59,656 nucleotides of DNA from an uncultured Caulobacterales bacterium. GTDB lineage: Bacteria; Pseudomonadota; Alphaproteobacteria; Caulobacterales; Maricaulaceae. Below the pieces are notes generated by a model. The model was not told where the DNA came from, made no database searches, and saw only the letters and a program-made list of their open reading frames with translations. The stretch is taken from the NCBI GenBank assembly GCA_938003545.1, contig CALKXY010000010.1, forward strand, positions 1 through 59,656, in the 5' to 3' direction. Both the position numbers and the translations under genes were made by a program. Of the stretch, positions 6,988 through 22,701 are shown piece after piece (the first letter of the stretch is position 1; each line of letters starts with the position of its first letter).

Positions 6988-7152
6988 CTAACCGAGGATT
7001 TTAATAACGCCGAGGGTTAAAAGCGTAACAGCGGCGGCACTCATGACGGCCATACCATAATAATAAAATGCGCGTTTTGTCCGGCCAATGAGGCAAAGCT
7101 CTTCCTTTGGCATGCCTGATTTCAACAGGTAACTATCAATCAAATTCGTCAT
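6988..7152 (-). CDS. 54-aa single-span membrane protein
   Basis: This short ORF starts at an ATG with AAAGGACATAAT upstream, a good ribosome-binding site. The protein begins MTNLIDSYLLKSGMPKEEL and has a hydrophobic segment at residues 29-53 (YYYGMAVMSAAAVTLLTLGV). It lies between the ilvA terminator region and the MBL-fold gene, on the same strand as ilvA. Function is unknown. The ribosome-binding site, the amphipathic head and the clean TM tail make it a likely real small protein. Confidence 0.6.
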   Translation of the reverse strand: MTNLIDSYLLKSGMPKEELCLIGRTKRAFYYYGMAVMSAAAVTLLTLGVIKILG

Positions 7153-7203
7153 ATTATGTCCTTTCTGAAGACCTTATATGTGAATACAGACTGAATGGTC
7201 AAT

Positions 7204-7245
7204 AAGTGAGTTATCACTTAGGTGTGAGGGGCAAGTTAGCCCCTC
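7204..7245 (-). terminator. Double hairpin at the ilvA 3' end
   Basis: On the minus strand GAGGGGC-TAACTT-GCCCCTC (7245 to 7226) is a perfect 7-bp stem whose loop contains the ilvA TAA stop codon. It is followed by a second stem AAGTGA-TAAC-TCACTT (7219 to 7204). No long U run follows, so this is either a weak intrinsic terminator or a 3'-end stabiliser for the long ilv-leu transcript. Confidence 0.5.
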
Positions 7246-8774
7246 AAGAAAAATCCATAGGCTGGATTATCTGTCTCTTTTGCCATGGGGTATCCCGTAC
7301 CAGAAAGCTGCGTCTCTAGCGCCTCTATGTCGTCATTTGGAACATGAAATCCGCAAAGCACATGACCTTCTGCTGCGCCGTGATTAGAGTAATGGAACAG
7401 GGAAATATTCCACCGCGCGTCCAGTGTTTCTAAAAATTTCGTCAATGCGCCTGGGCGCTCTGGAAATTCGAACCGATAGATAACCTCGGCACGATTGTCA
7501 CCGCGTCCGCCAACCATGTGGCGCAGATGTCGTTTGGCGAGGCGATCATGGGAAAGATCGGTTACATTTATATCTTGCGCGGCCATATCCGAAATCACTT
7601 GCGCGCGATCATCGAGGTCACGTGTTTTTAACCCGACCAAAACATGTGCTTCTATGGTTTTTGCAAAGCGGTAATTAAATTCTGTCACAGCGCGTTGACC
7701 CAATGCCCGTACGAAATTCAAAAAAGCTCCAGGTCTCTCCGGGATTGTCGCTGCAAATAGCATCTCTTCGCCTGCGCCAAATTCTGCGCGGTCGACCATA
7801 TGACCAATGCGGTCGAAATTTACATTTGCCCCTGAAATGGTGACGACAAGGTCCCCGTCGGGGGCAAGGTCGTCTTTGATGTGTTTGATGACGCCTGCCA
7901 ATGCGACCGCACCTGCAGGTTCAACAACCGTGCGGGTGGCTTCAAATATATCGCGAACGGCCGCGCAAATTTCGTCATTTGTCACTGACATTTGGGTGTC
8001 CACAACTTGCACGCAAATTTCATATGTCAGCGATCCAAATGTCCGAACAGCCACGCCATCTGCAAAGCCATCGACCGTGTTTAGAGCAACGGGCCCGCCC
8101 GCCTCTAACGCCGCGCCTAAAGTTTGCGCGCCTGCGGGTTCAACTGCAATGACTTTGCTATTCGGGGCATGACGGTCAAACCATGCGCCAATACCAGACA
8201 CTAAGCCGCCGCCGCCGGTGCAGACGTAAACCGCGCCAGGTGTGCGGGGCAGTTGTTCCAAAATTTCTTTCCCAACGGTGCCTTGGCCGGCAATGACGTC
8301 GCGTTCGTCAAAGGGATGAACAAAGACAGCGCCCGTGTCATTGGCATGGGCAATGGCCGCCATACAGGCATCGTCATAGGTGTCCCCGATCAGGCGCGTC
8401 GTTGCGCCCATGGCTTCTACGGCTGCGACCTTAATCGGCGGCGTCGTAATGGGCATGAAGATGAGGGCTTTGGTTTTATAATGGCGGGCTGCAGCTGCGA
8501 CGCCCTGCGCGTGATTGCCTGCGCTGGCGGCGACAACGCCGCGTGTGCGTTCCGTTTCATTTAATGCGGAAATGCGATTAGCCGCTCCGCGAATTTTAAA
8601 TGAAAACACATCCTGTAGGTCTTCGCGTTTCAACCAAATATCACGACCAAGTGCGGCCGAGAGCTTTGGTGCGAATTGCGTCGGTGTGCGCCGCGCAAGG
8701 CCATAGACCTGCGCGGCATCAATCCGCGCGCACAGGTCGTCTAAATCAACAGGGGAAGACTTAGGCTTTGACAT
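7236..8774 (-). CDS. ilvA: Threonine ammonia-lyase, biosynthetic (IlvA)
   Basis: The predicted protein has 512 aa, close to E. coli IlvA. It deaminates threonine to 2-oxobutanoate, the first committed step to isoleucine. The PLP lysine lies in FSFKIRGAA (Lys60). The glycine-rich phosphate loop is CTGGGGLVSGIG near 190. Two C-terminal ACT-like regulatory repeats (IPERPGAFLNFVRAL at about 345 and FPERPGALTKFLETL at about 440) should allow isoleucine feedback. It is the last gene of the BCAA locus, and its start overlaps the leuB end by 14 nt. Confidence 0.96.
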   Translation of the reverse strand: MSKPKSSPVDLDDLCARIDAAQVYGLARRTPTQFAPKLSAALGRDIWLKREDLQDVFSFKIRGAANRISALNETERTRGVVAASAGNHAQGVAAAARHYKTKALIFMPITTPPIKVAAVEAMGATTRLIGDTYDDACMAAIAHANDTGAVFVHPFDERDVIAGQGTVGKEILEQLPRTPGAVYVCTGGGGLVSGIGAWFDRHAPNSKVIAVEPAGAQTLGAALEAGGPVALNTVDGFADGVAVRTFGSLTYEICVQVVDTQMSVTNDEICAAVRDIFEATRTVVEPAGAVALAGVIKHIKDDLAPDGDLVVTISGANVNFDRIGHMVDRAEFGAGEEMLFAATIPERPGAFLNFVRALGQRAVTEFNYRFAKTIEAHVLVGLKTRDLDDRAQVISDMAAQDINVTDLSHDRLAKRHLRHMVGGRGDNRAEVIYRFEFPERPGALTKFLETLDARWNISLFHYSNHGAAEGHVLCGFHVPNDDIEALETQLSGTGYPMAKETDNPAYGFFLRG

Positions 8775-9816
8775 AATCCGCGATCCACGCGCCGACTTGG
8801 GATGTGCTTAATGTGCCGCCCAAATCGCCCGTTGTTTGCCCTTGTGTGAGGGCTGCAGAGACAGCGGACTCAACCGTTTCGGCCTCGGCATTTAATCCAA
8901 AACTTAAGCGCAACATCCATGCCGCGGAGAGGATCATCGCGAGAGGATTGGCTTTACCTTGCCCTGCAATATCTGGTGCGCTGCCGTGGATTGGCTCATA
9001 CATACCCATTTCGCCATCAGACAGAGACGCGGACGGAATGACACCCATTGAACCGCACAGCACAGAGGCTTCATCGGTGAGAATATCGCCAAACATATTT
9101 TCGGTCAGGACGACATCAAAATCTTGCGCGCGTGTCAGCATATGCATGGTCATCGCATCGACCAGAAGATGTTCTAATTCAACCTCAGGATAAGAGGCAG
9201 CAACATCAATGACGGTTTCGCGCCACAGGCGAGATGTCTCCAAGACATTGGATTTATCAACGCTGGTGACTTTCTTGCGTCGTGTCATAGCAAGGTCAAA
9301 AGCCTTGATTGCAATACGGCGGACTTCGGCCTCGGAATAACGGCACTCATCATAAGCTCCGTTTTCATCACGGCCTTTGTCGCCGAAATAAATACCACCC
9401 GTTAGTTCACGCATCACAACAAAGTCGACGCCTTCGAGGCGTTCTCGCTTCAGCGGAGCGCGGTCAATGAGTGCCGGATAAGGTTTGCACGGACGGATGT
9501 TAGCATAGAGATTGAGGCGCTTACGCAAAGGCAAGAGCGATCCTAATTCAGGGCGATCTTCGCCCTTTAAGTGATCCCATTTCGGCCCGCCTACTGCGCC
9601 TAACAAGATTGCGCCGGTTCGCTTTGCGGATTCATAACTCTCATCAGGCAGAGGTTTTAATCCCGCATCAATTGCCGCGCCGCCAACTAAAAATTCTTCA
9701 GTTTTGAGGACGTGTCCAAATTTAGCTGCGACAGCGTTCAGGACAGCGATGGAGGCTGCGCCGACTTCGGGGCCAATCCCGTCGCCAGGTAAATATGTAA
9801 AATTAATCTCAGCCAC
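8761..9816 (-). CDS. leuB: 3-isopropylmalate dehydrogenase
   Basis: The predicted protein has 351 aa. I choose a GTG start ([18 protein letters not shown]) because the family begins directly before this motif, a GAGG sits upstream, and the longer frame only adds unrelated residues from inside leuD. The start overlaps the leuD stop by 8 nt. The substrate and metal site NMFGDILTDEASVLCGSMG and the NAD site EPIHGSAPDIAGQGKANP are intact. It oxidises and decarboxylates 3-isopropylmalate to 2-oxoisocaproate in leucine synthesis. Confidence 0.96.
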   Translation of the reverse strand: MAEINFTYLPGDGIGPEVGAASIAVLNAVAAKFGHVLKTEEFLVGGAAIDAGLKPLPDESYESAKRTGAILLGAVGGPKWDHLKGEDRPELGSLLPLRKRLNLYANIRPCKPYPALIDRAPLKRERLEGVDFVVMRELTGGIYFGDKGRDENGAYDECRYSEAEVRRIAIKAFDLAMTRRKKVTSVDKSNVLETSRLWRETVIDVAASYPEVELEHLLVDAMTMHMLTRAQDFDVVLTENMFGDILTDEASVLCGSMGVIPSASLSDGEMGMYEPIHGSAPDIAGQGKANPLAMILSAAWMLRLSFGLNAEAETVESAVSAALTQGQTTGDLGGTLSTSQVGAWIADYVKA

Positions 9817-10390
9817 GGTTTGCCTCAAACTCTGCAATCGCGTCGGATTGCTTTTGTAAATATCCCATCTCATCCACGCCTTCCATGAGGCAATGGCGAG
9901 AGAAAGAATCGATTTCAAATTTATAGGTCCCGCCATTGCGCGGCAGGCGTACTTCGCAGGCGTCCAGATCAACAGTGACTTCGGCGCCGGGATTGTCCAA
10001 CAGCCATTCATGCGCGCGTTTCTCTATCACGACAGGAAGCAGTCCGTTTTTCAAACTATTCCCGCGGAAAATATCTGCAATCTCCGAACTGATCACAACA
10101 CGAAGGCCGTAATCGGTTAGGGACCACGGGGCGTGTTCACGTGACGAGCCACAGCCGAAATTATGACCACCGACAAGGATTTGGCAGGCCTTGGCTGCAT
10201 CGCTATTTAGAGGGTGGTCTGTTTCCGACCCGTCATCATTATAACGCCAATCATTAAAGGCATGTTTCCCAAGTCCTTCGCGCGATGTCACGGTTAGGAA
10301 ACGCGCAGGAATAATTTGGTCTGTATCGATGTTCTCAGCTGGTAAAACGAGTGTCGTCGAGGTGACAGATTTCAAGGGTTCAAAGCTCAT
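9809..10390 (-). CDS. leuD: 3-isopropylmalate dehydratase small subunit
   Basis: The predicted protein has 193 aa. The aconitase swivel-domain signature [15 protein letters not shown] is at about residues 77-91, and [12 protein letters not shown]-type residues ([14 protein letters not shown]) lie near 20. It partners LeuC to isomerise 2-isopropylmalate to 3-isopropylmalate. The start overlaps the leuC stop by 4 nt, as expected for two subunits of one enzyme made in equal amounts. Confidence 0.97.
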
Positions 10391-11784
10391 GCCGCTGCTC
10401 CCTTTAATGTGCGAGCATCTGTGATGACGCCCATCACGGCTGCGGCAGCGGCCGTTTCCGGCGACGCCAGCACGGTACGTGCGCCCGGACCTTGCCGACC
10501 TGCGAAATTTCGGTTGGAGGTAGAAACAACGAGTTCACCTGGCGCAGCTTTGTCGCCGTTCATTGCGATACACATAGAGCAGCCGGGCTCGCGCCATTCC
10601 GCGCCAGATGCTATTATGACGTCATGCAGGCCTTCCGCTTCGGCTTCGGCTTTAATTTGCTCACTGCCAGGGACGACGATTGCTTTGACGTGGCTTGCGA
10701 CTTTGCGGCCAGAGAGAATGCTTGCCGCCGCGCGCATGTCTTCGATCCGCGCATTGGTACAAGACCCGATAAAGACGCGGTCCACACGCAGGCCTGTCAT
10801 CGGTGCTCCGCCTGTGACTTGCATATACTCAAGTGCAGCCGTTTCGGTATCATCCGTTGCGACAGGCACCATTGCATCAATTGGCATCGCCATGCCAGGA
10901 TGCGTGCCATATGTGATCATCGGGCGAATATCTTCGGCCTTCATCGTCACGACTTTATCGAAATCTGCACCATCATCTGTTGCCAATGAAGCCCAATCTG
11001 CGCAGGCTGCGTCATAATTTTCTGGTGCGAATTTTCGACCTTTGAGATAATTAAATGTCGTTTCATCTGGCGCAATCATACCGCAACGCGCACCAGCTTC
11101 GATGGACATGTTACAAACCGTCATGCGGCCATCCATGCTCATTTCGCTAAAGACATTGCCACGATATTCCAACGCATAACCTGTCCCGCCACCCACGCCG
11201 ATTTTGGCGATGATTGCGAGGATGACATCTTTCGGTGTGACGCCCGCTTGCAGTTCGCCATTGACCTCAATTGCCATTGTTTTGGGTTTACGCATGAGAA
11301 TGGATTGGTTCGCCAGAACATGTCCGACCTGCGTCGTGCCAATGCCAAAAGCAATCGCGCCAAACGCGCCATGGGTTGAGGTGTGGCTATCGCCGCAAAC
11401 AATCGTCATGCCCGGTTGGGTCGCGCCCAACTCTGGCCCCATCACATGTACCACGCCGCGATACGCGCTTTCCCAGCCATGGGTTTCGATACCATGTTCT
11501 GCCGTGTTCGCGAGCAACATTTCAACCTGCTTACCAGCCTGCTTGGTCACGAAAGGCCGTGACCCGTCAGTGTTAATGAGGGTTGGTGTCGAATGGTCAA
11601 TCGTAGCCAAGGTCCGATCTGGACGGCGAACCTTCAACCCACGCTCGCGCAGAACCGTAAAGGCTTGCGGAGACGTCACCTCATGGATGAGATGCAAATC
11701 AATATAAAGCGTCGCAGGATGCGCGTCCGTTTCCGTCACAACAATGTGCCTATCCCAGACTTTGTCGAAGAGTGTCTTAGGCAT
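10387..11784 (-). CDS. leuC: 3-isopropylmalate dehydratase large subunit
   Basis: The predicted protein has 465 aa. The cysteines that bind the [4Fe-4S] cluster are in [14 protein letters not shown] (near 345) and [10 protein letters not shown] (near 405). The [20 protein letters not shown] motif near 130 is also present. It is the catalytic subunit of isopropylmalate isomerase. Its first 8 nt overlap the end of the 158-aa membrane-protein gene upstream. Confidence 0.97.
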
Positions 11785-12253
11785 TAATAATATCCGTTTC
11801 TGATTTTTGAATTGTAATGCGGTGGTAGAGATAGATGGCTGCGAAGACGATTAATACTTGTCTCAGTATGTGGGCGGCTAGACCAATCTCGAAATAATCA
11901 AAGTCTAGCATATGAATGATTTCGCGTAGAAAGAAAGAACCGCTTAGCATCGCGATGACACCTACGATTATGCAAACAGTTCGTAAGAGACGATAGGTCT
12001 TGGGTTTTGCTATGATCTCTAGTTCTGAAATCAAAATTGCAGCCGGTATTAATGCCACGATCAAATCGTCAAGACCGAACACAAAGGCAGAACTTCTTGC
12101 AACAGGCCGATTTTGGTTCAAGTAATAAGCTTCGATCACGATGTTGTAGAAAAGCTTTCCAGAATAGAAGCATACCACACTTGCGGCTACGAAATAGCGC
12201 AACCACCTGAACCTGCGGCTTTGGAAGAACAATGTGTCGTCCAGCAGCAGCAT
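11777..12253 (-). CDS. Four-span membrane protein inside the leu operon
   Basis: The predicted protein has 158 aa, with hydrophobic stretches at about 18-40, 63-77, 88-107 and 122-141. I do not recognise a family. Its start overlaps the leuA stop (TAATG) and its stop overlaps the leuC start by 8 nt, so it is translationally coupled on both sides. It is AT-richer than the leu genes. Possible roles include a membrane anchor or transport accessory for the pathway, or a late insertion that kept the operon intact. Confidence 0.75.
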
Positions 12254-13812
12254 TAATGCTGCGCGGCAATCGCGCGCTCCCCTGAGGCGTTACGGGATTG
12301 GCGGCGGTCGATACGATTGATCACATCTAGATATGCGAGCGCAGACGCCAGCACCGTATCCGTATCTGTGCCGCGCCCTTGGTAAGTCTCGACCTCTGTG
12401 GCGACGCGTACCGTGGCTTCGGCCATGGCGTCTTTGCCGCCTGATACGGATGTCACAGCGTAATGTTCAAGTTCCATCGGGATTTTTGCGATCTCTGAAA
12501 TGGCGGCGAAAACAGCATTCATCGGGCCTTTGGCGCGGCTGACATGTGTCTCTGTACGGCCATCTTCATGGGAGAGACGGACAATCGCTTCGGGTTCGCG
12601 TTTATCATCCGAGCCAGCAGAGACAAAGAGCGAGTCTATCGTCCACGGTCCTTGTACGCCGACGGCTTCGCCCAAAACGAGGGCCTCAATATCTGAATCA
12701 AAGACTTCCTTCTTGTCATCTGCCAAAGCTTTGAAGGCTGCGAAGACAGAGGCAAGTTGATTATCCGCGAGGGTAAAGCCGAGCTTTTCAGCGCGCGACT
12801 TTAGGGCGGCCCGTCCCGAATGTTTGCCAAGCACGAGGTTGTCTGTGCTGACGCCGACATCTTCGGGCTTCATGATTTCATAGGTTTCGCGGTTCGCCAA
12901 AACGCCGTGCTGATGAATACCGCTTTCATGTGCGAAGGCGTTCTTCCCAACGATGGCTTTATTTCGCGGCACGGGATTACCCGTAATAGTCGCAAGCAGT
13001 TTTGATGCGGCATAGAGGCCTTGAGTTTCAATGCCTGTCGTTATGTCAAAGAAATCCTTGCGTGTGCGCAGCGCCATGACGACTTCTTCTAAAGCGCAAT
13101 TGCCCGCACGTTCGCCAATACCGTTCAGGGCGCATTCGACCTGACGCGCGCCGCCGCGTATCGCCGCAAGAGAGTTTGCAACAGCCAAGCCCAAATCATT
13201 ATGACAATGGGCGGAGAAGATGACTTTGTCCGCGCCTTCAATCTCTGTCGTTAAGAATTGGAATAAGTCCTGAATTTCTTCGGGCGTTGTATATCCGACG
13301 GTATCAGGAATATTGATTGTCGTTGCGCCCGCTTTGATCACGGCTTCGCAAACCTCTTTCATATAATCGCGTTCCGTGCGGATCGCATCTTCGCAGGAAA
13401 ACTCAACGTCATCCGTATAGGTTCTCGCAAGTTCAACCCCCGCCACGGCGCGGCGCAGAATTTCTTCCTTGGACATCTTTAATTTGAATTCACGATGCAA
13501 CGGACTGGTTGCGATAAATGTATGAATACGTCCGCGTGCGGCAGGCTTTATCGCTTCGCCACTGGCGCGGATATCACCATCATTACAGCGCGCGAGAGAG
13601 CAGACGATGGAGTCTTTCACTTCTGTTGCGATTGTTTTGATCGCTTCGAAATCACCGGGGGACGCGGCGGCAAAGCCGGCTTCCATCACGTCAACTTTGA
13701 GGGCTTCTAGAGCTTTGGCCAGACGGAGCTTTTGCTCACCTGTCATGGAAAACCCTGGCGCTTGCTCGCCGTCGCGTAATGTTGTGTCGAATATTTTAAC
13801 GTGTTCAGTCAT
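12253..13812 (-). CDS. leuA: 2-isopropylmalate synthase
   Basis: The predicted protein has 519 aa, the usual size of the long form. It condenses acetyl-CoA with 2-oxoisovalerate, the first step of leucine synthesis. The catalytic TIM barrel starts with IFDTTLRDGEQAPGFSM, and metal ligands are in SAHCHNDLGLAVANS. The C-terminal LeuA dimer domain (from about 380, ending near DVINRIDRR) normally binds leucine for feedback inhibition. It follows ilvM by 28 bp on the same strand. Confidence 0.97.
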   Translation of the reverse strand: MTEHVKIFDTTLRDGEQAPGFSMTGEQKLRLAKALEALKVDVMEAGFAAASPGDFEAIKTIATEVKDSIVCSLARCNDGDIRASGEAIKPAARGRIHTFIATSPLHREFKLKMSKEEILRRAVAGVELARTYTDDVEFSCEDAIRTERDYMKEVCEAVIKAGATTINIPDTVGYTTPEEIQDLFQFLTTEIEGADKVIFSAHCHNDLGLAVANSLAAIRGGARQVECALNGIGERAGNCALEEVVMALRTRKDFFDITTGIETQGLYAASKLLATITGNPVPRNKAIVGKNAFAHESGIHQHGVLANRETYEIMKPEDVGVSTDNLVLGKHSGRAALKSRAEKLGFTLADNQLASVFAAFKALADDKKEVFDSDIEALVLGEAVGVQGPWTIDSLFVSAGSDDKREPEAIVRLSHEDGRTETHVSRAKGPMNAVFAAISEIAKIPMELEHYAVTSVSGGKDAMAEATVRVATEVETYQGRGTDTDTVLASALAYLDVINRIDRRQSRNASGERAIAAQH

Positions 13813-13840
13813 GGTAGGTCTTTTAAATTTAGGCGCTCAT

Positions 13841-14143
13841 TTAAGCGCGTTCGGCGCGTTTACGGCGGCCAACTTTTTCTGCACTGACGACATTGTAAAG
13901 ACGTTCCAATTGAAGACATAGCGTGTTCAAATCATTGGGTCCGCCCGTATCCTCAACCGCAACCAGCAGATCGAAATCGCCGTCTACGCGTTGGGTACAA
14001 TGTACGTCGCGATAGTCATATCCACGGCGCTCGATCGTGCCGAGCGCCCTGATAAGGGTTCCAGACACGTCGTGGAGCACGATCTTGAGTTTCCCAGAAA
14101 CCCCGGACGGTTCAAAGGTTTTATCGCGTTGAAGTTCGGTCAT
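13841..14143 (-). CDS. ilvM: ACT-domain protein, IlvM-type acetolactate synthase small subunit
   Basis: The predicted protein has 100 aa with a single ACT domain (KLKIVLHDVSGTLIRALGTIERRGYDYRDV at about 18-47). It sits in the ilvB-leuA interval where the acetolactate synthase regulatory subunit is expected. It is far shorter than the usual alphaproteobacterial IlvH (about 170-180 aa) and resembles E. coli IlvM (87 aa). No full-length ilvH occurs in the window. The start overlaps the preceding 53-aa ORF (ATGA). The assignment rests on context and fold. Confidence 0.75.
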   Translation of the reverse strand: MTELQRDKTFEPSGVSGKLKIVLHDVSGTLIRALGTIERRGYDYRDVHCTQRVDGDFDLLVAVEDTGGPNDLNTLCLQLERLYNVVSAEKVGRRKRAERA

Positions 14144-14301
14144 TTCTTACTTTCTTGGCGCATGCGTTTTCGGTTAGTTCTTTGTCTAATTTTCGCGGCA
14201 CGTTTCAATGTTGCCTCTGTTTCTACATCCAAGCGTAATATGTACTCGAAAAAGACGTGCGACCCAAAAAATAGCACGGTGATCAGGATGACCCAGAACA
14301 T
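14140..14301 (-). CDS. 53-aa membrane protein with basic tail
   Basis: The ATG is preceded by GGAGGGGTAAT, one of the best ribosome-binding sites of the region. The first 22 residues are hydrophobic (MFWVILITVLFFGSHVFF). The C-terminal half is charged and strongly basic (KRAAKIRQRTNRKRMRQ), as in a single-span protein with a cytoplasmic tail. Its stop overlaps the ilvM start by 4 nt. Its ribosome-binding site is provided by the end of the truncated ilvM copy at 14303-14386. Function is unknown. Confidence 0.6.
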   Translation of the reverse strand: MFWVILITVLFFGSHVFFEYILRLDVETEATLKRAAKIRQRTNRKRMRQESKK

Positions 14302-14302
14302 A

Positions 14303-14386
14303 TTACCCCTCCATCACAAGAGTATGGCCAAGTGACCGTGACACGCCGGACGGTTCAAAAGTTTTATCGCGTTGGAGTTCGGTCAT
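14303..14386 (-). pseudogene. Truncated upstream copy of the ilvM start (27 aa)
   Basis: The first 16 codons encode MTELQRDKTFEPSGVS, identical in protein to the start of ilvM at 14143. The DNA differs at five third-codon positions and at no other, then the frame diverges and stops after 27 codons. Its ATG overlaps the previous ORF stop (ATGA). It looks like the remains of a tandem ilvM duplication, or a short peptide kept under selection at the protein level. The following GGAGGGG serves the 53-aa gene. Confidence 0.7.
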
Positions 14387-14643
14387 GTGATGTACTCGTC
14401 TGAACCAAGAATTTGATTGCGAAAGAAAAGGCCAAGAAAAATGAATATGGTAAGACTGTTACCAAGTAAGGATACGCTTACACTCGCAAGGTTATCCAAA
14501 AGTCCCGTCATGCCAAAAATCATATCTGAATGTTTCAGCATATACCAAATATAGCTCAAAGAGCCAAAACTCGCGATTGTTGAGGCAATAGCCCCAATCA
14601 CGCCAATGATGATGGACAGAGTTATGAGGCGTGTGCGGATCAT
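14383..14643 (-). CDS. Small membrane protein, 86 aa
   Basis: I start at MIRTRLITL because that ATG overlaps the stop of the preceding gene by 4 nt. The longer frame would begin inside the neighbour. There are two clear hydrophobic segments, about 5-35 and 60-78. The stop overlaps the ATG of the truncated ilvM copy. Family is not recognised. Confidence 0.6.
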   Translation of the reverse strand: MIRTRLITLSIIIGVIGAIASTIASFGSLSYIWYMLKHSDMIFGMTGLLDNLASVSVSLLGNSLTIFIFLGLFFRNQILGSDEYIT

Positions 14644-14882
14644 TTGCTCGTGACCGTGATCAGGAAAAGAAATATCCAAGTGATCAATCCATAAGCTATT
14701 AAAACAATGCCCCAATAAAGAGGTGCGATAGACTGCAACGCGCCCTCGTCTTTGACATGCGTATTCTGGTTCCGCCGCGCCATGCCTTTAAGAAAGCAAA
14801 TCACGCCGAGGATAGGTGCGCCAATAAAGCCGAAGGCTATGACTATGAGGAGAACAGCGCCCACGGGCTTAGATTTCCACAC
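14640..14882 (-). CDS. Small two-span membrane protein, 80 aa
   Basis: The frame opens at a GTG (read MWKSKPVG). Hydrophobic spans are at about 8-31 and 54-76, separated by a charged loop with RRNQNTHVKDE. It is coupled by ATGA to the next gene. No ATG start is available. Family and function are unknown. Confidence 0.55.
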   Translation of the reverse strand: MWKSKPVGAVLLIVIAFGFIGAPILGVICFLKGMARRNQNTHVKDEGALQSIAPLYWGIVLIAYGLITWIFLFLITVTSK

Positions 14883-14943
14883 TGTTGGTGGAGACCGGAA
14901 AAGTTAAGGCCTTGATCGTGATATGACGTTGTCGTTGGATCAT
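14869..14943 (-). CDS. Tiny coupled ORF, 24 aa, doubtful
   Basis: This 24-codon frame (MIQRQRHITIKALTF...) starts on an ATGA overlap with the stop of the 79-aa gene and ends inside the start of the 80-aa gene. It may simply carry ribosomes across the gap between its neighbours. No ribosome-binding site or homology is visible. Confidence 0.25.
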   Translation of the reverse strand: MIQRQRHITIKALTFPVSTNSVEI

Positions 14944-15179
14944 GAAAAAGTTTGGTCTGTAATCGTCGTCTTCTTGTTTTTTAATGTCATTCGTAAATGA
15001 GAAACGGACACCCAAAATGTGAGAAGGAAGAATCCAAATGTCATGATTGGGGTTACAATATTGGCGGAAGGTACATTTTTATACGTTAAGAATATTGTGG
15101 CGAAGGCTACGGCTAATATTAAACCTTGAAAAACAATAGTGGCGTATAAAATCCATGTGTGTTTGATGATTGGAAACAT
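14940..15179 (-). CDS. Small two-span membrane protein, 79 aa
   Basis: The ATG lies two bases after the ilvB stop codon, so ribosomes ending ilvB could restart here. Hydrophobic segments are at about 9-31 and 43-62, with a basic tail (RMTLKNKK). It is the first of a string of coupled small membrane ORFs between ilvB and ilvM. Function is unknown. Confidence 0.6.
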   Translation of the reverse strand: MFPIIKHTWILYATIVFQGLILAVAFATIFLTYKNVPSANIVTPIMTFGFFLLTFWVSVSHLRMTLKNKKTTITDQTFS

Positions 15180-15181
15180 GG

Positions 15182-16936
15182 CTACCGCTCCATCATATCA
15201 GCGTTGCTGCGTCCCGGAGGGACGAGCGGCCAGACATTTTCATTTGGATCGATTTTGACGTGCATGAGGACTGGGCCGTCCGTTGACAGCAGGCGCTCAA
15301 TGCCCGCGTCCATTTCATCGGCGGTGTTGACGGTGAAGGCGTCGATCTGGAAGGCTTTCGCGAGGAGGGCGAAATCGGGATTATCGTCCAAATTGGTTTC
15401 AGAATAATTCTTGTCAAAGAAGACCTCTTGCCACTGACGGACCATGCCCAAGACTGAGTTGTCCAGCAGAACAATCTTCAACGGAATGCCATAACGATGG
15501 AGCGTGGCGAGTTCCTGAATATTCATCATGATCGAGCCATCGCCAGAAACGGTAATGACTGTGCGCTCAGGCGCGCCCAATTTTGCGCCAAGACCTGCGG
15601 GCAGGCCGAAGCCCATCGTGCCGAGGCCACCGGATGTGATGTGATCTTTGGGTTCGTCGAAATAACAATGTTGCGCGACCCACATTTGATGCTGGCCGAC
15701 ATCGCAGGTGAAAATCGCTGCGGATTCTTCTTTAAACATGGCGTCCGCGCGTCGGGACAAATCATGCAGCAGTTTTGGTGCGTAAATACCCGGTGAAGCT
15801 TTGGCCTGCGCGCTGGCGTAATCCCACTCATGTTCCTCGCGGCGACCATAGCAAAGCTCGGTCCACTCAGAAATATTTGGCGCAATGCCTCCGTCAAATG
15901 GGTCGAGGGCGGCGAGGTTCTTTTTCAAACTCCCGTCCAGACCGACATTCACGCGGCGGAGTTTATTTATCTCCGCAATATCAATATCCATGTGAATGAT
16001 TTTTGCATGCGGTGCGAATGTGTCGAGCTTGCCCGTGGCGCGGTCATCAAACCGTGCGCCGACCACGATCAAAAGGTCGCATTCTTGCACGGCGTAATTC
16101 GCTGCGCGAAGGCCATGCATCCCGAGCATTCCAAGATAGTTTGGATGATCAGACGGCAGAGAGCCTAGGCCTTTAAGTGTCGATACACCTGGAATTTGTG
16201 TGCGCTCAACGAGTTCTCGCAATTCCGCAACGCCGTCACCTTGGGCCACGCCGCCGCCGATATAGAACAACGGCTTCTTGGCGTCACGCATCAGTTGTTC
16301 AGCTTTTGCGATATCTGCGCTCTGGCCCATCTCAGGCTTTTGCTTCGGGTAAGGCCGCCATTTGTGACGATCTGTTGTCAGCGCGTTTTGTACGTCTTTC
16401 GGAATATCAATCAACACAGGACCGGGACGACCTTCGGCCGCGATGAAATAGGCTTCGGCAATCATGCCTGGCAAATCTGCTGGGTCGCGCACGATATAGC
16501 TATGTTTGACGATGGGCATAGTGATGCCGATGATGTCAACTTCTTGGAACGCATCTGTGCCCATGAGGTTTGTTGGGACTTGGCCTGTGACAAAAACAAC
16601 GGGAACGGAATCCAAATAAGCATCAGCAATGGCGGTGACGAGGTTCGTTGCGCCCGGACCAGATGTGGCGAAAGCTGTACCGACTTTACCTGTTGCGCGC
16701 GCATAACCAATCGCCGCCATACCGCAGCCTTGTTCGTGTCGGCAGAGGATATGACGCAGCTGCGGGTAATTCGGCAGCTCGTCATAGACGGGCATGATCG
16801 CCCCGCCAGGATAGCCAAAGATCAAATCCACACCCTGCGCAGCGATAGATTCAAGCAGGAGTTTGGAGCCAGATTTCGGCGCGCGGTCCGCTAGGATTTC
16901 TGTCTGCTGACGGTCGAATTGCGTTGCTGTGGTCAT
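15182..16936 (-). CDS. ilvB: Acetolactate synthase large subunit
   Basis: The predicted protein has 584 aa and is a thiamine-diphosphate enzyme. The catalytic Glu is in the LCRHEQGCGMAAIGYARA segment near residue 68. The ThDP/Mg site is SGDGSIMMNIQELATLHRYG near 468. It makes acetolactate or acetohydroxybutyrate, the common step to Val, Leu and Ile. The symbol could equally be ilvI or ilvG. Its regulatory partner is probably the short ACT protein about 1 kb downstream. Confidence 0.96.
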   Translation of the reverse strand: MTTATQFDRQQTEILADRAPKSGSKLLLESIAAQGVDLIFGYPGGAIMPVYDELPNYPQLRHILCRHEQGCGMAAIGYARATGKVGTAFATSGPGATNLVTAIADAYLDSVPVVFVTGQVPTNLMGTDAFQEVDIIGITMPIVKHSYIVRDPADLPGMIAEAYFIAAEGRPGPVLIDIPKDVQNALTTDRHKWRPYPKQKPEMGQSADIAKAEQLMRDAKKPLFYIGGGVAQGDGVAELRELVERTQIPGVSTLKGLGSLPSDHPNYLGMLGMHGLRAANYAVQECDLLIVVGARFDDRATGKLDTFAPHAKIIHMDIDIAEINKLRRVNVGLDGSLKKNLAALDPFDGGIAPNISEWTELCYGRREEHEWDYASAQAKASPGIYAPKLLHDLSRRADAMFKEESAAIFTCDVGQHQMWVAQHCYFDEPKDHITSGGLGTMGFGLPAGLGAKLGAPERTVITVSGDGSIMMNIQELATLHRYGIPLKIVLLDNSVLGMVRQWQEVFFDKNYSETNLDDNPDFALLAKAFQIDAFTVNTADEMDAGIERLLSTDGPVLMHVKIDPNENVWPLVPPGRSNADMMER

Positions 16937-16986
16937 CTCTGTGTCCCGGGTCTGCGTGTCGTAGACATGCGCCTCTTGTTTCGTGT

Positions 16987-17012
16987 CCCTCTCTCCGAGA
17001 TAGGAGAAAGGG
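16987..17012 (-). other. Stem-loop between ilvC and ilvB
   Basis: CCCTTTCTCC and GGAGAGAGGG (minus strand) form a 10-bp stem with one G-U pair and a 6-nt loop, 25 bp after the ilvC stop. No U run follows in the direction of transcription. It could slow exonucleases or set an expression difference between ilvC and ilvB. Confidence 0.5.
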
Positions 17013-17036
17013 TGTTTTAGTTAATTTAGGTTTTGA

Positions 17037-19759
<2,723 letters not shown>

Positions 19760-19807
19760 ATTCCTAAACTCAAAACCAGATCATCAAAATCACTGCGTCC
19801 CAAACAC

Positions 19808-19835
19808 AAAAAAACCCGCGTCCTCTCGGAGCGGG
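19808..19835 (-). terminator. Intrinsic terminator (attenuator) ahead of ilvD
   Basis: On the minus strand CCCGC-TCC, loop GAGA, GGA-C-GCGGG is followed by seven U residues, a textbook intrinsic terminator. It lies 25 nt after the leader-peptide stop and about 50 nt before the ilvD start. No complete gene separates it from ilvD, so its use must control ilvD. A GCGGG at 19870-19874, over the last codons of the leader ORF, could pair with the 5' arm CCCGC and act as antiterminator. Confidence 0.8.
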
Positions 19836-19859
19836 TGGTTTATGTTCGAGGTGTTCTCT

Positions 19860-20009
19860 CTACATAAGTCCCGCGCTTGGCCCGATCAGGACCACGACAG
19901 ATAGAAGCAGAATGAGGACGAGGCCGCCAAATAGGGCAGCATCATTCGAGAGCGTCTGTTGACGCGTCGCGACCTTCACTTTAACTTCGTATTTGTCCTG
20001 CGAGTGCAT
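19860..20009 (-). CDS. ilvL: Ilv leader peptide or small membrane protein, 49 aa
   Basis: The ATG has AAGGA six bases upstream. Residues 30-42 read LVLILLLSVVVLI, twelve of thirteen being Leu, Val or Ile, followed by GPSAGLM and a stop. This layout recalls the E. coli ilv leader. The ORF ends 25 nt before the U-tailed terminator in front of ilvD. Stalling at the BCAA run would leave the downstream GCGGG free to disrupt the terminator. The same run could also be a membrane helix, so it might be a translated small protein in its own right. The N-terminal 20 residues are longer than in classic leaders. Confidence 0.65.
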   Translation of the reverse strand: MHSQDKYEVKVKVATRQQTLSNDAALFGGLVLILLLSVVVLIGPSAGLM

Positions 20010-20101
20010 AGCTATCCTTAAACTCGTCCTTCGTTAACGAGTCAAGCGTGGACCCTCAAGAAAAAAATTTGCGTTTCATGATGATAATCGCGGTATGAAG
20101 T

Positions 20102-22571: not shown

Positions 22572-22578
22572 GTCGTCC

Positions 22579-22694
22579 TCATCTTCGCGGCTTGCACCCA
22601 AGCTGCAGGATTTGGCACCGTTCACACATTTTCTATGAAAATGCTCGAGGTTGCCCCAGCTTCAAAGGGCCTGTCCCTCTGCCGGTCTTGATGA
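22579..22694 (-). promoter_or_regulatory. SAM-I (S-box) riboswitch upstream of metX
   Basis: Core S-box sequences occur in order on the minus strand: TCATCAAGA, AGAGGGACAGGCCC, GAAGCTGGGGCAACC and CGGTGCCAAATCCTGC. P1 pairs TCATC (22694-22690) with GATGA (22583-22579). P2 pairs CCGGC-type bases with GCTGG. P3 is GCATTTTC-ATA-GAAAATGT, and P4 is AGCTTG-GGTG-CAAGC. This is a complete aptamer. It should turn off metX and the genes behind it when S-adenosylmethionine is plentiful. SAM-II is the more familiar class in this bacterial group. Confidence 0.92.
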
Positions 22695-22701
22695 TGAACG
22701 G

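Follow-up and report, generated by a model that had tools for sequence, protein, structure and literature searches.

A probable branched-chain amino acid attenuator with a long leader peptide ahead of ilvD in a Maricaulaceae bacterium

The window, by which we mean the whole 59,656-nucleotide stretch of DNA analyzed here, belongs to a 2.3-Mb draft genome and carries on its minus strand a cluster of ilv and leu genes headed by ilvD. A short reading frame containing a run of Leu, Val and Ile codons and an intrinsic terminator lie just ahead of ilvD, and the features of this locus are as follows.

20032..20060, minus strand: probable promoter of the leader transcript (CTTGAG 20060..20055, 17 nt, TTAACG 20037..20032; putative hexamers)
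20015..20019, minus strand: ribosome-binding site AAGGA, 5 nt ahead of the leader ATG, read from the sequence
19860..20009, minus strand: leader peptide ORF of 49 aa (ATG at 20009, stop codon TAG at 19862..19860; the Leu/Val/Ile run is codons 30-42, with one Ser within it)
19962..19985, minus strand: N-terminal motif VKVKVATR, leader codons 9-16, conserved at the amino-acid level in five genera
19870..19874, minus strand: antiterminator strand GCGGG, over the final leader codons
19840..19867, minus strand: inner hairpin of the antiterminator (UUAUGU/ACAUAA plus GAG/CUC), overlapping the stop codon
19815..19835, minus strand: terminator stem-loop (5′ arm 19835..19828, 3′ arm 19823..19815, C19820 bulged)
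19808..19814, minus strand: U7 tract of the terminator, read from the sequence
18086..19759, minus strand: ilvD, dihydroxy-acid dehydratase, the first structural gene after the attenuator
7236..18065, minus strand: downstream genes ilvC, ilvB, small ORFs, an ACT-domain subunit, leuA, an unknown ORF, leuC, leuD, leuB and ilvA, presumably under common control

The 49-aa reading frame and its ribosome-binding site, which had been proposed in a reading of the sequence alone (hereafter the sequence-only reading), are both present on the minus strand, and the frame ends in the C-terminal sequence LVLILLLSVVVLIGPSAGLM given there; the complete peptide is MHSQDKYEVKVKVATRQQTLSNDAALFGGLVLILLLSVVVLIGPSAGLM. 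It had no match in Pfam at E 0.001 or in NCBIfam at E 1, and a search of the genome contigs for it returned no match. CTTGAG precedes the leader in all 13 same-genus sequences when these are read by eye, and transcription probably starts close 5′ of the leader. The same reading had placed an intrinsic terminator with seven U residues just 5′ of ilvD, and it lies there, at 19835..19808. Its sequence is CCCGC-TCC-GAGA-GGA-C-GCGGG followed by U7, and the region 19860..19805 folds at −19.8 kcal/mol (z −4.19), a value equaled by none of 200 shuffles. An automated terminator scan did not list it (0 found), probably because of the one-base bulge in its stem.

Several features of the neighboring genes were also recorded. 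A SAM riboswitch (RF00162, 73.8 bits; 22576..22697, minus strand) precedes genes for an alpha/beta-hydrolase and a Cys/Met PLP enzyme. This methionine-type operon is the immediate upstream neighbor of the ilv attenuator, and no terminator is visible between the two; the end of a Cys/Met-enzyme-like gene also precedes the leader in several relatives of the same genus and of genera g7 and g16. Downstream, the stretch between ilvB and leuA (13841..15180, minus strand) holds small ORFs, part of them with hydrophobic segments. It also encodes a 100-aa protein with an ACT domain (PF13710, 32.1 bits), probably a short regulatory subunit of acetolactate synthase of the IlvM kind. Neither Pfam nor NCBIfam gave a match for the 158-aa ORF at 11777..12253 (minus strand), between leuA and leuC. 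As listed, the leuB ORF (8761..10011, minus strand) shares ∼200 bases with the end of leuD (9809..10390); its LeuB domain starts at residue 72, so the true leuB start is probably later. When 7000..19800 was scanned for terminators, 24 sites were listed on the two strands together, against 14.8 (sd 4.1) in shuffles; all were weak, with no more than 4 G-C pairs. Gene order makes a single transcript, and with it control of the whole ilv-leu locus by the attenuator, plausible.

We surveyed relatives for the same arrangement. The best named ilvD matches include Litorimonas, Hellea, Algimonas and Robiginitomaculum, and ilvD was found at E≤1e-170 in 94 of 137 genomes of the family. The upstream set comprised 96 ilvD regions, 93 from the family and 3 from another family of the order, and was assembled without G111, which has only 56 nt upstream, and without six further genomes of the order with ilvD matches (L051-L056). 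A script placed a terminator near ilvD in 78 of the 96 regions, and two of these candidates (G009 and G012) were rejected by eye because they are located in the preceding gene. The remaining 76 have, like the window, a terminator between a leader and the first structural gene, together with an antiterminator strand, and closer reading added two more (G022 and G098). In G022 the element stands before a second ilvD piece on a different contig. In G098 (Robiginitomaculum antarcticum; L265) it stands further upstream, with a 123-aa ORF between terminator and ilvD that the switch would control too.

A Leu/Val/Ile-rich leader ORF precedes the terminator in every one of the 76 carriers. Leader length is 40-50 aa in 70 of them (median 45), in keeping with the remark in the sequence-only reading that the 49-aa leader is unusually long; the extremes of 29 and 70 aa are probably wrong choices of start codon. 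A match to the ribosome-binding site of at least 3 bases precedes 72 of the 76 leaders, and one of 4 bases precedes 44. After thinning at 75% identity, which left a non-redundant set of 32 leaders, Leu, Val and Ile accounted for 68% of the 16 codons immediately preceding the antiterminator strand (33%, 22% and 13%, respectively), and each of the 76 leaders has at least 8 such codons among these 16.

The 18 regions without the element belong to genera g6 (6 regions), g14 (2) and g15 (10). In all 18, a reading frame that we take, from a sequence motif, to be threonine-synthase-like ends at the ilvD match or within 24 nt of it. We inspected the DNA upstream of ilvC-ilvB in 8 of these 18 genomes (G008 included), and all 8 have a Leu/Val/Ile-rich leader, a terminator with a U tail and a strand complementary to its 5′ arm before ilvC. 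Genus g9 includes two genomes (G032 and G037) that gave no ilvD match; they likewise have the same leader, N-terminal motif included, before ilvC. The element thus keeps to the head of the operon when the gene order changes, whether ilvD or ilvC comes first.

The attenuation logic put forward from the window gains most from this recurrence before both genes, and the same holds for its central claim, that GCGGG over the last leader codons pairs with the 5′ arm of the terminator. The complementarity is real (GCGGG at 19874..19870 with CCCGC at 19835..19831, 5 bp) and recurs in relatives, but it is weak in the window alone, where a pairing at least as good arose in 35 of 200 dinucleotide shuffles of the 71 nt upstream; in only 46 of 78 sequences did this duplex test leave 10 or fewer of 200 shuffles pairing as well. 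We therefore folded, for each sequence separately, the 66 nt upstream together with the first 9 nt of the terminator, which represents the RNA before the 3′ arm is made; separate folds were used since subgroups differ in the register of the antiterminator strand, which is also why RNAalifold on a MAFFT alignment of 40 sequences found the terminator only. The minimum-energy fold contained an antiterminator helix of at least 5 bp in 76 of 76 sequences and in 32 of 32 of the non-redundant set. Shuffled upstream sequence forms such a helix in 60% of cases, so that 19.3 of 32 would be expected. The excess over shuffles is clear across the set and not in single cases. The antiterminator that recurs in relatives and the terminator are mutually exclusive, and its position is at or after the control codons; it is weak in the window alone, and its core lacks covariation.

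The antiterminator encloses an inner hairpin that the sequence-only reading had missed. In the window this hairpin (19867..19840) is strong (z −4.1; 0 of 100 shuffles), and in the relatives its mean z is −1.46 (t −7.2, 32 non-redundant sequences), with sequences that differ between genera. The covariation analysis suggested in the sequence-only reading gave a divided answer. When columns were anchored on the CGC of the arm, as was possible in 30 of the 32 sequences, the core CCCGC was invariant in all 30 and so shows no covariation. The flanking helix columns do vary, with UA 8, GC 7 and CG 3 at −4, UA 5, CG 4, GC 3 and UG 1 at −5, and GC 13, AU 2 and GU 1 at +3; these columns pair in part of the sequences only, and their several standard pair types lend modest support to the antiterminator helix. 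A first count had suggested compensating changes inside the arm core as well, but its columns were out of register, with arms starting CCC or CCCC, and this candidate was dropped. When arms were swapped between genera, a sequence's own arms paired better (p = 0.003 and 0.02, 32 sequences), a modest effect in which the arms of the window were not outstanding. The pairing, hairpin and swap tests treat related sequences as independent and therefore overstate their independence. The core of the antiterminator strand sits in two different leader frames (35 and 34 of 69 sequences), a pattern consistent with conservation of the RNA and not of the peptide.

One alternative for the terminator is that it closes the methionine-type operon, which lies directly upstream on the same strand and has no terminator visible right behind its met gene; ilvD would then have its own later promoter, and there would be no attenuation. 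However, all 76 carriers have a leader with a Leu/Val/Ile run ahead of the terminator, as do the inspected loci in which ilvC comes first, only 48 nt separate the U tract from ilvD in the window, and a plain terminator needs no recurrent alternative partner. We consider this alternative to have hardly any chance of being correct.

The spacing of the parts suits a switch set by the position of a ribosome. The stop codon ends between −8 and +22 nt from the end of the antiterminator strand (+10 in the window) and lies beyond the strand in 73 of 76 sequences, and the last adjacent pair of Leu/Val/Ile codons ends 1-16 nt before the strand (9 nt in the window). A ribosome within the run would thus leave the antiterminator strand free, and a ribosome at the stop codon would cover it. 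A switch in the leader RNA that works independently of ribosome stalling, as a riboswitch or through a released regulatory RNA, seems exceedingly improbable. A terminated RNA of ∼220 nt would arise, and the trp attenuator of S. meliloti yields a trans-acting RNA and peptide, according to the accessible portion of PMC7298713; against such a switch, Rfam at gathering score gave no family in the leader region, its matches within the window being SAM and tRNA only, and conservation is poor beyond the arms, the inner hairpin, the Leu/Val/Ile codons and the N-terminal motif.

A pause hairpin over the last Leu/Val/Ile codons, which appeared conserved by eye, was rejected as a general feature since it showed no excess over randomization with synonymous codons. 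For a pause or protector (1:2) hairpin within the 13 codons that lead up to the antiterminator strand, the mean z was +0.06 (n = 32) with 3 of 32 sequences at the 5% level; the stretch ends at the strand, so that a hairpin including the strand is invisible to this test. The consensus fold of genus g18 (12 sequences) does include a hairpin that overlaps the antiterminator strand. If there is no protector hairpin, loss of leader translation is predicted to give read-through, not super-termination.

The observations cover the parts and the order in which they stand, the fact that they recur in relatives and an alternative pairing that recurs with them; the features of a branched-chain amino acid (BCAA) attenuator that can be sought in sequence, namely a codon run, a terminator and an antiterminator, are present. 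We propose, with a probability of about 0.9, that the element is a transcription attenuator of the ribosome-mediated type, responding to charged Leu, Val and Ile tRNAs; its translation, stalling, read-through, start site and transcript extent are what we infer. It is the recurrence in relatives that makes this case, the window alone offering modest evidence for the antiterminator. With sufficient BCAA, the ribosome would pass the Leu/Val/Ile codons and reach the stop codon, where it would cover GCGGG and open the inner hairpin; the terminator arms would then pair, and RNA polymerase would halt at the U tract. If any of Leu, Val or Ile were short, the ribosome would stall within the run, at least 9 nt before GCGGG, which would be free to pair with the 5′ arm of the terminator around the inner hairpin; no terminator would form, and ilvD and the later genes would be transcribed.

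Unusual for a leader of this kind is its N-terminus. A motif resembling P-K-V-K-V-A-x-R is found in most of 24 sequences from five genera (g1, g5, g7, g9 and g16); the window has V in place of P, and G034 and G050 deviate more. In pairwise comparisons of the KVKVA columns, ∼0.16 of pairs differ at codon positions 1 and 2 and ∼0.53 at position 3, and it is therefore the amino acids that are conserved; between close pairs, leader codons 9-16 gave pN 0.12 and pS 0.39. The motif is absent from g12 and g18. In three genomes of ∼1.8-2.0 Mb (G015, G020 and G021; L147, L145 and L148) the arms and the terminator are kept, the motif is lost, and charged or polar residues break up the Leu/Val/Ile run.

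Conservation of a peptide raises the question of whether the ORF is an ordinary gene for a small membrane protein that has its own terminator and stands before ilvD by chance. The sequence-only reading had noted that the leader could form a membrane helix, and hydropathy does predict one in 75 of 76 leaders, with only G015 below 1.6; this says little, as a run of Leu, Val and Ile scores so in any case, and helix prediction was given up as a discriminator when G020 and G107 were expected to be negative and yet 75 of 76 leaders scored positive. Besides the helix and the motif kept in five genera, apparent constraint on the N-terminal half in one close subgroup of g12 (six sequences, pN/pS 0.28) speaks for such a gene. 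In contrast, the N-terminal half is nearly unconstrained outside the motif clade (pN/pS 1.09 in g12 and 0.78 in g17 and g18), and the antiterminator strand and inner hairpin would have no role in a membrane protein gene, yet they recur. Moreover, a peptide profile searched against the 137 family genomes gave 26 matches at E≤1e-10, all of them beside an ilv gene (ilvD or ilvC) and with a terminator, so that the peptide was never seen without the switch; 23 of the 26 are the profile's own sources, and among the weaker matches (E>1e-10) G098 alone was examined. According to the sequence-only reading, a peptide conserved outside the BCAA run in relatives that lack the terminator would argue against attenuation; the terminator accompanies all 26 matches, and the leader peptide is nonetheless conserved outside the run in five genera. 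We regard a chance-placed membrane protein gene as very unlikely and favor an attenuator leader.

Such a leader might be bifunctional, providing the attenuation codons and also a peptide product with a basic N-terminus (PKVKVA-R) and a hydrophobic C-terminus, which could act as a tail-anchored, BCAA-linked membrane protein or as a nascent chain that tunes stalling. We hold this to be a speculative and rather unlikely addition. The hydrophobic run ends 7 residues short of the leader C-terminus and would thus still be in the ribosome at termination, which argues against co-translational insertion into the membrane. The combination of a long leader with an N-terminal motif kept at the amino-acid level makes a function of attenuator leader peptides in their own right testable, for example in Litorimonas cladophorae and Hellea balneolensis.

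Classical BCAA attenuators provide the frame for comparison. The ilvL, leuL and related leaders of E. coli have a run of control codons and alternative hairpins in the same way, but they are shorter (∼28-32 aa), and the 1:2 hairpin that is well defined in them did not emerge as a general feature here. Within the order, an attenuator of Caulobacter crescentus ilvBN was reportedly described by Tarleton in 1994. For four genomes from three other families of the order, possible leaders of ∼12-17 aa were seen by eye before ilvB, resembling the known alpha-proteobacterial ilvB leader; that short leader stands directly before ilvB, whereas the window has 49 aa before ilvD with ilvB as third gene, and the present element is not a member of that type. 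As the accessible part of PMC4117421 describes it, the C. crescentus ilvBN (ilvL) attenuator relies on Ile and Val codons in tandem, on pausing of the ribosome and on a rho-independent terminator; it comes from the same order (Caulobacterales) and follows the same logic as the present element, but it sits before ilvBN (ilvIH) and not, like the 49-aa leader, before ilvD. BCAA attenuation with an ilvB leader peptide has been predicted in the same bacterial class, the alpha-proteobacteria (Vitreschak 2004, as cited in PMC1273637), but for ilvB rather than ilvD or ilvC. We found no earlier report of an ilvD or ilvC attenuator in Maricaulaceae in a literature collection that lacks most subscription journals, and Vitreschak 2004 could include related predictions.

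The likeness to Staphylococcus aureus is one of position, since an attenuator with Ile and Leu codons precedes ilvD there at the head of the ilv-leu operon; in the portion of PMC5794164 available, its peptide has 26 aa compared with 49 aa here, its antiterminator is proposed to capture the U tract, and CodY exerts control as well. Leader peptides usually have fewer than 20 aa, and the trp leader peptide of S. meliloti acts in trans, as stated in the available text of PMC7298713. With the present element, BCAA attenuation of the classical type would also be found at the start of a complete ilv-leu-ilvA cluster, in a marine alpha-proteobacterial family. Its type is well known, and the long leader and the conserved N-terminus are its unusual points.
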